Source of the DNA: Labrys monachus
Lineage (GTDB): Bacteria; Pseudomonadota; Alphaproteobacteria; Rhizobiales; Labraceae
NCBI RefSeq assembly: GCF_030814655.1
Contig: NZ_JAUSVK010000001.1
Coordinates: forward strand, 1,569,501-1,633,500
Length of the DNA stretch: 64,000 bases
Direction of reading: 5' to 3'
This document shows positions 7,267-16,757 of this stretch, piece after piece (position 1 is the first letter of the stretch; every line of letters starts with the position of its first letter). Both the position numbers and the translations under genes were made by a program. A model generated the notes under the pieces. That model was not told where the DNA came from and made no database searches. It worked only from the letters and a program-made list of their open reading frames with translations.

Positions 7267-9372
7267 TCAACCCTCGATTTTCGAGAAATCGGCGACGCTG
7301 CGCATGGCCGCGCGGATTTCCTCCAGCAGCTTCAAGCGGTTGAGCCGCAGGGCGGCGTCGTCCGCATTGACGAGGATCCTGTCGAAAAAGGCATCGACTG
7401 GGAGGCGCAGCTGCGCCAGCGCCGTCATCGCGCCTTCGAAATCCTCGGTCGCGACCGCTGCCGCGGCGGCCTGGCGGGCCGTCTGCAGCGCGGCCTGGAG
7501 CGCCCGTTCCTCCGGCTCGGCCAGCAAAGCGGGGTCGAGGCCGCCGGCATAGGCGCCGGCGCCGTCCTTCTTTTCCTCGATGCGCAGGATGTTGGCCGCA
7601 CGCTTGGCGCCGGCCAGCAGCGCCTTGCCGTCGTCGGTGCCGAGGAAGCGCCCGAGCGCCTCGACGCGCCGCACGATGAGCAGCAGGTCGTCCTGGCCGC
7701 CGAGCGCGAACACCGCGTCGACGAGATCGTGGCGCGCGCCCTGTTCGCGCAACTGCACCTTGAGGCGGTCGGCGAAGAAGGCGAGGAGATCGTCAGCGAT
7801 GCCGCCGCCGCCGGCAAAGGGGGCCTTCCGCACGAGGGCGAGCAGCGGCAGGCGCAGACGGTTGTCCAAGGCGATGCGGATCACGCCGAGCGCCGCCCGG
7901 CGCAAGGCGTAGGGGTCCTTGCTGCCGGTGGGCTTTTCGTCGATGGACCAGAAGCCCACCAGCGTGTCGAGCTTGTCGGCGAGCGCCACGGCGATCGCCA
8001 CGGGCTCGGACGGCGCCGCGTCGCCGGCGCCCCGGGGCCGGTAATGATCCTCCACCGCGGCGGCGACCGAGACCTCCTCGCCCTGCGCTTCGGCGTAATA
8101 GCGGCCCATCAGGCCCTGCAGCTCCGGGAACTCGCCGACCATCTCGGAAGCGAGGTCCGCCTTGGCGAGCCGCGCCGCCCGCTCGGCCTTGGCAGGATCG
8201 GCGCCGACCAGCGGCGCGATGGCTCCCGCCAGCGCCGCGATGCGGGCGATGCGCTCGCCCTGGGTGCCGAGCTTCTCGTGGAAGACGACATTCGAGGCGA
8301 TGATCTTGGCGAGGCGCTGGTCGAGCGGCTTGCCAGTGTCCTCATAGCCGGGCAGGGGCTTCTGGTCGGTCTCCCAGAAGAATTTGGCGTCCGACAGGCG
8401 GGCGCGGATGACGCGCTCATTGCCGGCGACGATCGCCGCCCCGCCGTCCTTGGCCTCGATATTGGCGATGAGGATGAAGCGGTTGGTCAGGCGTCCGGTG
8501 TTCGGATCGCGCACGACGAAGCATTTCTGGTTCGCCCGGATGGTGGCCTGGATCGCCTCGTCCGGCACGCCGAGGAAGGCGGGGTCGAAGGCGCCCATCA
8601 GCACGACCGGCCATTCGACGAGGCCGGCGGCCTCGTGCAGCACGGCGTCGTCCTCGACCAGTTCGAGGCCCTGGGCGAAGGCGAGGTTGCGGGCGTCGTT
8701 GAGGATGATGTCGCGGCGGCGGGCCGGGTCGAGCACCACGCGGGCGGCTTCGAGCTTGGCGACGTAATCCTCGAATCGGCGCACCTTGAGGAGGCCGGGC
8801 GCCATGAAGCGGTGCCCCCGCGTGGTGTCGCCGACGCTGACGCCCTCGATCTCGAACGGCACCACCTCCGGGTCCTCCGTCTCCAGCCCGAAGGTACAGA
8901 TGATCGAATGCAGCGGCCGGACCCAGCGCAGCGAGCCCGAGCCCCAGCGCATCGATTTCGGCCAGGGGAAGGCCTTCACCGTCTCCGGCACGATCTCGGC
9001 GATCAGCTCCGGCACGGCGCGGCCCTGCCTTTCGATGACCGCGACGTAGAAGGAGCCCTTCTTCGGGTCGCTCTCGATCTTCGCCTCGTCGAGCGAAGCG
9101 AGGCCCGCCGATTTGAGGAAGCCCTGGACGGCTCCTTCCGGCGCGCCGACGCGGGGGCCCTTGCGCTCCTCGCGCGTGTCGGGCTGGCGGGCCGGCAGGC
9201 CGTGCACGGTGAGGGCGAGACGGCGCGGCGTGGCATAGGCCGAGGCGCCCTCATAGACCACGCCCCGCGCCACCAGCGCATCCGTCACCAGTTTCTTGAG
9301 GTCCTCGGCCGCCTTGGCCTGCATGCGGGCGGGAATTTCCTCGGAGAAGAGTTCAAGCAGAAGATCGGGCAT
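7267..9372 (-). CDS. glyS: Glycyl-tRNA synthetase beta subunit
   Basis: 701 aa, the normal length of the bacterial GlyS beta chain, which with GlyQ forms the tetrameric enzyme that charges tRNA-Gly. It begins [18 protein letters not shown], the characteristic GlyS N-terminus, and contains [19 protein letters not shown] and [10 protein letters not shown]. Its ATG lies only three bases from the stop of the DUF559 gene. The partner glyQ is on the same strand but about 900 bases further upstream, because a nuclease/repeat block lies between them. Confidence 0.97.
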
Positions 9373-9375
9373 GGG

Positions 9376-9894
9376 TTAGTCGGTGCCAGGTTCACCCTCC
9401 CCTGGATGGGGAGGGTCGGCCCGCAGGGCCGGGGTGGGGTGATGCGCAGCATCGGTGTGGTGTGGACTATCGACGGGATCGGACGGGATTCGATGAAGTC
9501 GCCGACGCTCAAACCGCGTCGGTGCGGCATGGAGGTCGCCATACAGCGCCGCATAGATGGTATCGAGGACACCTTCCAGATTGGAACGGACGTCGTCGTT
9601 CCAGAACCGGAGCACCCGATATCCCTGGCCTTCGAGGAAAGCCGCGCGCCGTGCATCATGGGAACGAGCGAGGGAGGAGCCGTGCTGGTCGCCGTCCAGT
9701 TCGATGATGAGGCCTGCATTGTGGCTGACGAAGTCGACGACGTAGCGATCGATCGGAGCCTGCCGCCGGAAATGGGTGCCGTGGAGCGGTATCCGTTCGA
9801 GATGGCGCCATAGAATCTGCTCGGGCGGCGTGGTGTTCGCTCGCAGGCGTTTGGCATTTGCGAGCCGGAAACGGGAGAGAGCGTCACCTTTCAT
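9376..9894 (-). CDS. DUF559 endonuclease-domain protein
   Basis: 172 aa. DUF559 proteins have a restriction-like (PD-D/E-xK) fold related to very-short-patch-repair nucleases; most have no assigned role. Seen here: FRLANAKRLRANTTPPEQIL, IPLHGTHFRRQAPIDRYVVD and LIIELDGDQH, followed by RVLRFWNDDV, all usual for the family. The ATG at 9894 is chosen because upstream sequence reads into a repeat. The last 20 or so codons are themselves made of repeat DNA (9391-9441). It sits inside the glyQ-glyS gap with a damaged sister copy next to it, suggesting a mobile origin. Confidence 0.85.
   Translation of the reverse strand: MKGDALSRFRLANAKRLRANTTPPEQILWRHLERIPLHGTHFRRQAPIDRYVVDFVSHNAGLIIELDGDQHGSSLARSHDARRAAFLEGQGYRVLRFWNDDVRSNLEGVLDTIYAALYGDLHAAPTRFERRRLHRIPSDPVDSPHHTDAAHHPTPALRADPPHPGEGEPGTD
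9391..9441 (-). repeat. Palindromic repeat, copy 1 (3' flank of intact DUF559 gene)
   Basis: Read on the minus strand it has two nested palindromes: GGCCCT-GC-GGGCC, and CCCTCCCCatccaggGGAGGG, ending in GTGAA. It lies within the 3' end of the DUF559 frame. Same orientation as copy 2, opposite to copies 3 and 4. Confidence 0.8.
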
Positions 9895-9921
9895 ACGATC
9901 TCCGTGTGGAATGGAACCGCA

Positions 9922-9963
9922 ACCCGCACCTTCCCTCGATGGGGAGCGTCGGGGTGGGGCGCC
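9922..9963 (-). repeat. Palindromic repeat, copy 2 (5' flank of intact DUF559 gene), degenerate
   Basis: Shorter relative of copy 1 (plus strand ACCTTCCCTCGATGGGGAG then GTCGGGGTGGGG), lacking the GGCCC hairpin. Located just upstream of the DUF559 start, in direct orientation with copy 1. Confidence 0.65.
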
Positions 9964-10030
9964 GTCTGGCGTCGTTTCGAACAATTGCATCTGGCTGCAG
10001 GGTTTCCAATAACATTGCCGCCGTAGAGCC

Positions 10031-10084
10031 GCCACCCCGCCCCGGCCCTACGGGCCGACCCTCCCCATTGAGGGGAGGGTGAAG
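10031..10084 (+). repeat. Palindromic repeat, copy 3 (at the breakpoint of the truncated DUF559 copy)
   Basis: CCACCCCGCCCCGGCCCTACGG continues into the CCCTCCCCattgAGGGGAGGG stem. It is a close inverted copy of copy 1 and abuts the point where the truncated DUF559 frame loses homology. Confidence 0.8.
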
Positions 10085-10093
10085 TGTGGCGCA

Positions 10094-10216
10094 TTTCGAG
10101 CCCTCCAGGGGAATCCGCTGCAAGGCATGCCAGAGTTTCTGTTCGGCTCCCGTGGTGTTCTCGCGTAGACGTCGAGCGCCGGCGCGGCGAAAGTCGGAAA
10201 TGGTTTTTCTCGTCAT
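10094..10216 (-). pseudogene. Truncated DUF559 nuclease remnant
   Basis: The first 41 codons of a second DUF559 gene, including FRRAGARRLRENTTGAEQKL and WHALQRIPLEGSK. They align residue for residue with the intact copy at 9376-9894 (FRLANAKRLRANTTPPEQIL, RHLERIPLHGTH). Homology stops after GSK, exactly where the family continues with FRRQ. The DNA then enters repeat copy 3. The catalytic region is missing, so this is a non-functional fragment. Confidence 0.75.
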
Positions 10217-10231
10217 TCCGCTCCCTTTCGG

Positions 10232-10283
10232 GCCACCCCACCCCGACGCTTCGCGTCGACCCTCCCCCTCCAGGGGAGGGTAG
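10232..10283 (+). repeat. Palindromic repeat, copy 4 (5' flank of truncated DUF559 copy)
   Basis: CCACCCCACCCCGACGCTTCGC then GTCGACCCTCCCCctccAGGGGAGGG. Here the first hairpin is GACGC-TT-GCGTC instead of GGCCC-GGGCC, but the second stem is conserved. It ends just before the glyQ stop and has the same orientation as copy 3. Confidence 0.8.
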
Positions 10284-10287
10284 CTCG

Positions 10288-11211
10288 TTAGGCGCCGCCG
10301 GCTGCGGTTTTTACCCAGGCTTCGCCGCACGCCTTGGCGAGCTCGCGCACGCGCAGGATGTAGCTCTGGCGTTCCGTCACGGAGATGGCGCCGCGGGCGT
10401 CGAGCAAGTTGAAGCGGTGGCTCGCCTTGATGCACTGGTCGTAGGCGGGCAAAGCGAGTTCGTGCCGGTCGCCCTTGTCGCCGGCGGCGAGCAGGGCCCG
10501 GCACTCCTTCTCGGCGTCGGCGAAGTGCTGCTTGAGCATGGCGATGTCGGCATGTTCGAAATTATGGCGTGAATATTCCTGCTCGGCCTGCAGGAAGACA
10601 TCGCCATAGGTGACCTTTTCGGCGCCTTCGCGGCCGTTGAAATTGAGGTCGTAGACATTCTCGACGCCCTGCACATACATGGCGAGCCGTTCGAGGCCGT
10701 AGGTGAGTTCGCCGGACACCGGGTTGCATTCCTGCCCCGCGACCTGCTGGAAATAGGTGAACTGCGACACTTCCATGCCGTCGCACCAGCATTCCCAGCC
10801 CAGGCCCCAGGCGCCGAGGGTGGGGCTTTCCCAATCGTCCTCGACGAAGCGGATGTCGTGCAGCAGCGGGTCGACGCCGATGGCGGCGAGCGATCCGAGA
10901 TAGAGCTCCTGGAGATCCGGCGGCGACGGCTTCAGGATGACCTGGAACTGGTAGTAATGCTGCAGACGATTGGGATTTTCGCCGTAGCGCCCGTCCTTCG
11001 GACGCCGGGAGGGCTGCACATAGGCCGCATGCCACGGCCTCGGGCCGAGCGAACGCAAGGTCGTGGCCGGATGGAAGGTGCCGGCGCCGACCTCCATGTC
11101 GTAGGGCTGCAGCACGACGCAGCCGTAATCGGCCCAATAGCGCTGCAGGGTCAGGATGAGGCCCTGGAAGGACCGTTCGGGGCGCATATGGGCGGGCAAG
11201 GCATCGGCCAT
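10288..11211 (-). CDS. glyQ: Glycyl-tRNA synthetase alpha subunit
   Basis: 307 aa, the usual length of the catalytic alpha chain, a class II aminoacyl-tRNA synthetase. It begins [20 protein letters not shown] and contains [20 protein letters not shown] and [20 protein letters not shown], all diagnostic. The ATG at 11211 fits family N-termini; further upstream codons have no conservation. A weak GCAGTGAA precedes it. It probably once formed a compact operon with glyS, now interrupted by the DUF559 block. Confidence 0.97.
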
Positions 11212-11436
11212 TTCACTGCTCGGGCTTGGTCGTTGTCGTCGTCCCGGCCGAAGCCCCGGACGACGGGCCACACCCTTAGAGCAAGATCGAAACAGGGGAA
11301 ACCGGATTCTGAATAGCGCCGGCGCCGCTTCCGCCGTGCCGAGGGATGTGTGCCGGCCCGCACATCCTTCCGGGGCCGGTCATGGGACTTTCGAGGGACG
11401 GGAACGGATGGCGTTCCGCAATTTGGGAGAAATGCC

Positions 11437-16552: not shown

Positions 16553-16613
16553 ATTTCCGGGGAAGGCGGCGGGGTGTCCATAGGCGCAGGGCATGCAAGA
16601 AATGGCGCAATTT

Positions 16614-16757
16614 CCTTCTCCCGGGCGGGAAGAGGTGGCGCGTAGCGCCGGATGAGGGACTGGCATTCGACAATTCCAGCGCAACTATCGAGCTGTCTTC
16701 GTCGACGTCCAGACCCTCATCCCCCCGCCGGGACCTTCTCCCAAACGGGAGAGAAGG
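16614..16757. repeat. Pair of inverted REP-like elements
   Basis: The left element (16614-16658) begins CCTTCTCCC and ends GGATGAGGG. The right element (16714-16757), read on the minus strand, also begins CCTTCTC and ends GGATGAGGG. Each contains its own short stem, and together they form a large inverted repeat with a spacer of about 55 bases. They lie between the binding-protein and permease genes of an operon and might reduce downstream expression or stabilise the upstream mRNA. Confidence 0.7.

Follow-up and report, generated by a model that had tools for sequence, protein, structure and literature searches.

DUF559 nuclease genes and their candidate partner repeats in Labrys monachus and other bacteria

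Genes of the DUF559 nuclease family (PF04480) lie between inverted copies of small palindromic repeats in Labrys monachus, and loci bracketed in this way occur across Pseudomonadota; one such locus was found in a Chloroflexota assembly and one in a CPR assembly. Each repeat consists of a pyrimidine/purine hairpin and a tag that mirrors its 3' arm, A or T standing at A. The association between DUF559 and the repeats is close to certain, and we have little doubt that gene and repeats form one system. DUF559 is likely to be the dedicated enzyme of a second, non-RAYT system of the REP/REPIN type, in which it would cut the repeats and set them in motion. Repeats of the triplex type were known already, and DUF559 is likely to be the partner that they lacked. 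In a partial search of the literature, from which bioRxiv preprints were absent, no link of DUF559 to these repeats was found, and nothing in the same partial literature connected repetitive extragenic palindromic sequences to very short patch repair.

The glyQ-glyS gap and the Labrys genomes

The stretch of DNA analyzed (the window) is 64,000 nucleotides long. Its glyQ and glyS genes are separated by a gap of 915 bp, in which we confirmed the four repeats and the two DUF559 genes, one whole and one truncated, that the initial annotation had described (Table 1). The orientations given there were also correct: copies 1 and 2 are on the forward strand, and copies 3 and 4 on the reverse strand. 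The 3' end of the intact gene reads through copy 1. Copy 2 is 88% identical to copy 1 along 24 nt and 87% identical along 15 nt. The initial annotation stressed the direct pairs, but copies 1 and 3, inverted around the intact DUF559 gene, are the more telling pair. A REPIN-like inverted doublet, with tags that face each other, seems to be made up of copies 2 and 3. When copies 1, 3, and 4 were folded as single strands, the folding z-scores were −3.26, −3.96, and −5.10, respectively. In the genome as a whole, 18 sites match the strict palindrome, three of them in the glyQ-glyS gap, compared with 0 for a backwards control; like the folding, this exceeds chance. The doublet in the last row of Table 1 is of the repeat type found at two DUF559 loci elsewhere in the genome (L001 and L002).

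Table 1. Features of the glyQ-glyS region and a further doublet in the window (positions in the window).
Feature	Position	Strand	Remarks
glyS ORF	7267-9372	-	left border of the repeat/DUF559 block
Intact DUF559 gene	9376-9894	-	172 aa from ATG; PF04480 E 5.9e-37, residues 12-117
Repeat copy 1	9391-9441	+	pairs with copy 3 along 51 nt (92% complementary); tag towards intact gene
Copy 1, hairpin	9394-9416		
Copy 1, second hairpin	9417-9431		
Copy 1, tag	9432-9439		GGGTGGGG
Repeat copy 2	~9927-9959	+	degenerate, without second hairpin; boundaries approximate
Repeat copy 3	10033-10083	-	inverted partner of copy 1; tag towards intact DUF559 gene
Truncated DUF559 gene	10094-10216	-	first ~41 codons, second lineage; between copies 3 and 4
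Repeat copy 4	10232-10283	-	beside start of truncated DUF559 gene
glyQ ORF	10288-11271	-	right border of the repeat/DUF559 block
REPIN-like inverted doublet	16612-16757	.	CCTTCTCC repeat type; no DUF559 gene inside; hairpin listed, sequence inspected

The glyQ-glyS gap was compared across the five Labrys species found, i.e., that of the window and four congeners. A search for empty gaps had been suggested at the outset, and two of the four congeners have them: the gaps of G143 (78 bp) and G146 (34 bp) showed neither DUF559 nor repeat. The 569 bp gap of G145 holds one DUF559 gene of the truncated gene's lineage (PF04480 E 1.1e-38) between inverted repeats, and a near-identical counterpart of copy 4 sits there at the same place. 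In G144 the gap measures 672 bp and has a single DUF559 gene, from the lineage of the intact one; a doublet lies upstream of this gene, and downstream of it no repeat was seen. The site is thus polymorphic and was occupied by two DUF559 lineages. We reject the idea that one gene was simply duplicated in the window, as the two lineages occur singly in G145 and G144.

Of ten sites of the L. monachus genome that were queried, the eight with loci in relatives were set against these. A doublet at 3,383 kb is shared with G145; G143 and G144 lack it, and their flanks join cleanly. The DUF559 unit at 6,524 kb is missing in G146, again a clean empty site. At 3,984 kb, G146 has the unit as well; G144 and G145 lack it and have other DNA between the flanks. 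The remaining five sites were unreadable owing to divergence or rearrangement. Units and doublets thus come and go as blocks among congeners, as shown at a few sites. A target-site duplication was sought at the two clean empty sites, where the flanks are too diverged for the boundaries to be read.

The L. monachus genome has five DUF559 genes. Four of them (L001, L003, L004, and L005) are bracketed by inverted repeats; at L002, both inverted repeats are on the same side of the gene. Four repeat types can be told apart by eye at these loci, one of which is common to L001 and L002. The repeats are also scattered over the genome, a pattern expected of an enzyme that acts in trans: there are 138 sites with the CCTTCTCC hairpin (0 for the control) and 65 with CCTCYCC hairpins (7 for the control). 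Among 12 sites picked for a doublet-like look, 11 have two hairpins about 120 bp apart, the REPIN arrangement; at the twelfth (L269) only one hairpin passes the hairpin rule. The tags of the 11 doublets face inward by eye, which is the polarity of the gene-bearing unit.

DUF559 loci and repeats across genomes

Our class sample comprised 143 alphaproteobacterial genomes, of which 51 contain PF04480 (95 matches). The 73 loci with E ≤ 1e-25 were taken, leaving out 22 weaker and mostly partial matches, and 71 could be tested for bracketing, two being too near a contig end. Bracketing was called from the inverted-repeat score between the 700-bp flanks (cut-off ≥44) with no hairpin rule, and sliding, mutually overlapping positions inside the same loci served as controls. 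Inverted repeats at this score bracket 46/71 loci vs. 0/1772 control positions, and at a score of at least 40 the counts are 48/71 and 3/1772. Direct repeats scoring at least 44 were found at 24/71 loci and 25/1772 control positions. The other 25 of the 71 loci lack a bracketing inverted repeat at score 44. The initial annotation had proposed that DUF559 and its repeats may be a mobile or repeat-spreading element. The results largely support this proposal; mobility and the spreading of repeats are what we infer below.

The hairpin and tag rules behind the following counts were fixed after the first loci had been seen. Over the 73 class loci, pyrimidine-arm hairpins reach a density of 7.5/kb within 100 bp of the DUF559 domain vs. 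0.03-0.09/kb at 1-6 kb, and so the enrichment within 100 bp about which the initial annotation had asked is present. Within 400 bp, hairpins lie on both sides of 43 class loci, on one side of 24, and on neither side of four (n = 71). A second sample consisted of the best 80 of 370 GTDB relatives of the window's DUF559 protein and is rich in Mesorhizobium. Here 49/78 testable loci are bracketed vs. 5/1850 controls, and hairpins within 400 bp are on both sides of 36 loci, one side of 39, and neither side of three (n = 78). The bracketed relatives include Beta- and Gammaproteobacteria, one Dehalococcoidia, and one Harrisonbacteria assembly. Among these best 80 of 370, the closest named relatives (Jiella and Bosea; L108-L111) are unbracketed. 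A phylum draw found PF04480 in 80/199 genomes, from which 28 non-alphaproteobacterial matches (E ≤ 1e-20) were taken; 11/28 are bracketed vs. 5/698 controls, with hairpins within 400 bp on both sides of 19, one side of seven, and neither side of two (n = 28).

Tags were called by the mirror rule. The nearest callable tag faces inward in 149 cases and outward in 41, or about one-fifth, over 181 loci. Where both sides were callable, 46/55 loci are inverted. At seven loci (L036, L044, L063, L065, L081, L088, and L100) contig ends are less than 3 kb off, as if assemblies break at the repeats. Five rhizobial loci (L126, L149, L170, L181, and L183) have an A/T-richer stem in place of the G+C-rich second hairpin.

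The link also holds between genomes. In the 143 alphaproteobacteria, whose genomes share descent, at least 10 hairpins occur in 34/38 genomes with full-length DUF559 vs. 6/105 others (Fisher 2.5e-22), the six being 2/13 genomes with weaker DUF559 matches only and 4/92 without any. The remaining four of the 38 have fewer than 10 hairpins. When only genomes of at least 2.5 Mb are counted, the figures are 31/34 and 3/49. Two observations had been named beforehand as evidence against the pairing, namely repeats equally common away from DUF559, and DUF559 kept in the glyQ-glyS gap of distant genera without repeats. Neither holds: the repeats are scattered widely, but 10 or more are reached in just 6/105 genomes that lack full-length DUF559. 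The E. coli control gave no PF04480 match though strain MG1655 has an annotated DUF559 protein, YcjD. Some DUF559 absences in the genome tables, those used for TMECO below included, may therefore be misses, unless the control was a different strain.

Gene and repeat types appear to have diversified together. A set of 86/101 loci with a tagged repeat gave a Mantel rho of 0.256 between DUF559 distance and repeat distance, the largest of 1000 permutations being 0.196. When permutation was confined within genomes (six genomes with at least three genes, 52 pairs), the observed value was reached in 9/2000 permutations; such permutations remove kinship only partly.

Repeat architecture and the BoxC/PIT/TMECO elements

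Over 226 elements, with T at A scored as a match, the fit of the tag to the mirror of its own arm is 0.973 vs. 0.883 for permuted arms (z 19.8). With one element per arm type (24 types), the fit is 0.953 vs. at most 0.896 in 5000 permutations. When T is scored as a mismatch, the changes in the tag at A are to T in 114 cases, to G in 16, and to C in three, with 256 kept, and at G there are 24 changes vs. 1355 kept. A tag that copies the arm directly, which would form an alternative hairpin, fits more weakly (z 8.5); among 172 asymmetric elements compared over an arm of 9, the mirror is better in 98, the direct copy in 10, and the two are equal in 64. The tags found are GGGTGAGG, GGGAGAGG, GGGTGGGG, GGAGGGGG, GGATGAGG and similar, not GTAG or CGTC. 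The linker is 3 nt in 118/214 aligned elements and 2-4 nt in 145. Longer linkers could accommodate a second hairpin, like that seen in the window, and the CCTTCTCC...GGAGAAGG type with its second hairpin presumably resembles the rhizobial RIME and other alphaproteobacterial intergenic palindromes.

Judged by the sequence rule, a pyrimidine arm, a purine arm, and a third antiparallel purine/T stretch make up the architecture of a purine-motif triplex. As read from the letters, the mirror-tag rule is the known purine-motif triplex code, G at G and A or T at A (PMC4666352). The same G runs might also form a G-quadruplex, which by itself predicts neither the mirror order nor the A-to-T exchanges.

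BoxC, PIT, and TMECO are names for known intrastrand triplex motifs of E. coli, of which 3610 were counted in 262 proteobacterial genomes (PMC4666352). Triplex formation by TMECO was measured in vitro, and in vivo footprinting gave none. The motifs have been tied to genome instability in E. coli, and their sites are highly variable, with 29 TMECO in strain 55989, 23 in MG1655, and one in IHE3034 (PMC4666352). In that 2015 study, the origin of the motifs was left open, no genetic-mobility activity had ever been found around them, and TMECO sites had no common flanking gene function and no mobility gene nearby. The repeats described here share with these motifs the C-rich stem, loop, G-rich stem, 3-nt linker, and second G-rich stretch, as well as the code, and are likewise intergenic, dispersed, and variable between strains. 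Unlike the motifs as published, they have the DUF559 enzyme family attached, and linker variants with a second hairpin are common. The window's own repeat type is such a TMECO variant; the exact string, 5'-CCCTCNCCC N3-6 GGGNGAGGG N3 GGGNGAGGG, has 0 copies in the window's genome. Exact TMECO copies were found in 42/199 phylum genomes, and some adjoin DUF559 directly (e.g., G082, G318, and G352). A DUF559 match (any, E ≤ 0.001) is present in 26 of the 32 phylum genomes with at least three exact copies vs. 54/167 others (Fisher 3e-7); six genomes with at least three copies have no DUF559 match.

In E. coli MG1655, ycjD is annotated as DUF559 and has a BoxC-like motif (three mismatches) about 170 bp off, on one side only. 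At least 80% of the ycjD query was matched in 3365/5426 complete genomes. We compared 60 records spread over the ranking of one search, in which the query contained BoxC and ycjD; clonal structure was kept, and the records share descent. The 37 records with ycjD have 11-24 BoxC-like places (median 16) vs. 1-13 (median 3) in the 23 without it (Mann-Whitney 4e-10; 2e-9 without the ycjD-linked place). Nine of the 23 listed ycjD-negative records keep 6-13 BoxC-like places, as relics would. Strain 55989 has ycjD. IHE3034 does not, and an efflux operon, at a site seen whole, is in its place. In further ycjD-negative strains, eight beyond IHE3034 (L317-L324 and L327, IHE3034 included), the fabI-sapF gap also holds the efflux operon, partly seen.

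A candidate enzyme for the repeats and the alternatives

The active-site residues of DUF559 are nearly invariant over 101 domains (E 101/101, D 101/101, E 101/101, and H 100/101), and we take them to correspond to the catalytic residues of Vsr. Vsr repairs T:G mismatches and is not known to be partnered by a repeat, and I-Bth0305I belongs to the homing endonucleases. The window's DUF559 sequence matches 3hrl, a DUF559 crystal structure, with E 2.3e-16. The fold predicted for it (47 sequences, pLDDT 77.9, pTM 0.70) is nearest 3hrl, then the I-Bth0305I homing endonuclease domain (E 1.7e-5), and weakly Vsr (E 5.7e-3). In its predicted fold and its conserved E, D, E, and H, DUF559 would thus be like Vsr and the EDxHD homing endonuclease I-Bth0305I. 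YcjD was placed in the PD-(D/E)XK superfamily earlier (PMC1189080).

The unit consists of a repeat, a DUF559 gene, and an inverted repeat, with tags mostly inward. Single dispersed repeats, and doublets that keep this polarity and have a short spacer where the gene would be, appear to be its non-autonomous derivatives. As a single strand, the repeat may fold into the pyrimidine/purine hairpin, with its 3' tag returning along the purine arm to make a third strand. Each DUF559 lineage goes with a repeat type of its own, as the statistics above show. The nuclease may recognize the folded repeat on transiently single-stranded DNA and cut there; it is plausible, though we hold it only tentatively, that the triplex-folded strand is the form recognized. 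Repair or replication-coupled copying, similar to homing, could then carry the unit or doublet to new intergenic sites, which would leave the block-wise presence and absence seen at a few sites in the congeners. Where the gene is lost, the repeats would persist as decaying relics. The polarity, the cognate pairing, and the doublets, together with the analogy to RAYT, suggest that DUF559 probably spreads the repeats. They may represent a class of elements in which a nuclease of the Vsr/homing type spreads repeats via an intrastrand DNA triplex, whether selfish or domesticated, a reading that we would put somewhat short of even. The candidate enzyme is tied to triplex-type repeats by position, orientation, co-occurrence, co-diversification, and within-species polymorphism. 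If this is true, we know of no earlier enzyme dedicated to DNA repeats that fold as triplexes, the finding would explain the origin of the E. coli BoxC/PIT elements and the hypervariability of their sites, and DUF559 (YcjD), an uncharacterized nuclease family, would gain a function.

DUF559 could instead serve the host in genome maintenance, either as a Vsr-like nuclease or by clearing DNA that triplexes block; it would then be kept because the repeats are there and would not spread them. This would suit the predicted Vsr-like fold and the VsrA protein of Caulobacter, which has a DUF559 domain, is linked to the DNA-damage response, and is proposed to be a mismatch-repair endonuclease (PMC12907096), and it accounts for the genome-level co-occurrence. 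We nonetheless regard it as unlikely, since it leaves unexplained why inverted repeats with inward tags surround the gene itself, why each paralogue within a genome has a cognate repeat different from the others, and why units are gained and lost as blocks. Such repeats are intergenic and hairpins adjoining genes can affect transcription, so that gene and repeats might be gathered by permissive intergenic sites, or the hairpins might be the gene's terminators or attenuators, with no functional pair. The near/far density ratio of more than 80 is beyond what intergenic confinement would plausibly give, and the two-sided inverted layout and cognate matching within genomes also make this quite improbable; PIT elements, moreover, are reported to have shown neither promoter nor terminator activity when studied earlier (PMC4666352). 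A small insertion sequence of the ordinary kind, with DUF559 as its transposase and the doublets as its MITEs, would likewise have a single gene between terminal inverted repeats and MITE-like doublets. Yet DUF559 genes are diverged within a genome (protein distances of 0.35-0.66 among eight genes of G009), unlike a freshly amplifying insertion sequence, no target duplication was read at the two clean sites with their diverged flanks, and the modeled fold appears to be that of cutting nucleases; we consider this explanation improbable as well.

The analogy to RAYT and REP sequences drawn in the initial annotation holds for the anatomy, while enzyme and repeat class differ. As in a RAYT/REPtron, one small gene is flanked by palindromes of its own type that are tagged at one end, and as with GTAG REPs, inverted doublets (REPINs) are scattered intergenically and gene and repeat types co-vary. 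DUF559, however, is a PD-(D/E)XK nuclease and RAYT a HUH tyrosine transposase, and the tag mirrors the purine arm here and is GTAG there. By membership this is no RAYT system, yet it would work like one, and the DUF559 system would be a second, independent solution to the role that RAYT has for GTAG REPs. RAYT-like Y1 transposases might themselves spread the repeats, with DUF559 as a passenger, as the window's genome has five PF01797 (Y1/RAYT-like) genes and 37/143 class genomes have a match. We disfavor this strongly. The gene beside the repeats is PF04480, no HUH/Y1 tyrosine transposase was found there, and the Y1 genes lie elsewhere with other repeats. At 20 PF01797 loci examined with 1000-bp flanks, this genome's five included, inverted repeats scoring at least 44 occur at 4/20, one of which is a long duplication, and inspection by eye shows other kinds of arm. 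Between PF01797 and richness in hairpins there is no association (13/37 vs. 27/106, p 0.29), and 0/23 PF01797-bearing genomes without full-length DUF559 reach 10 hairpins. In the window's genome, the flanks of three Y1 transposase genes (L190-L192) carry another palindrome family, which is CGCAGGC...GCCTGC-like, and the genome thus seems to have two unrelated REP systems. A further Y1 transposase gene (L188) is inside a very long inverted duplication (flank alignment score 1374).
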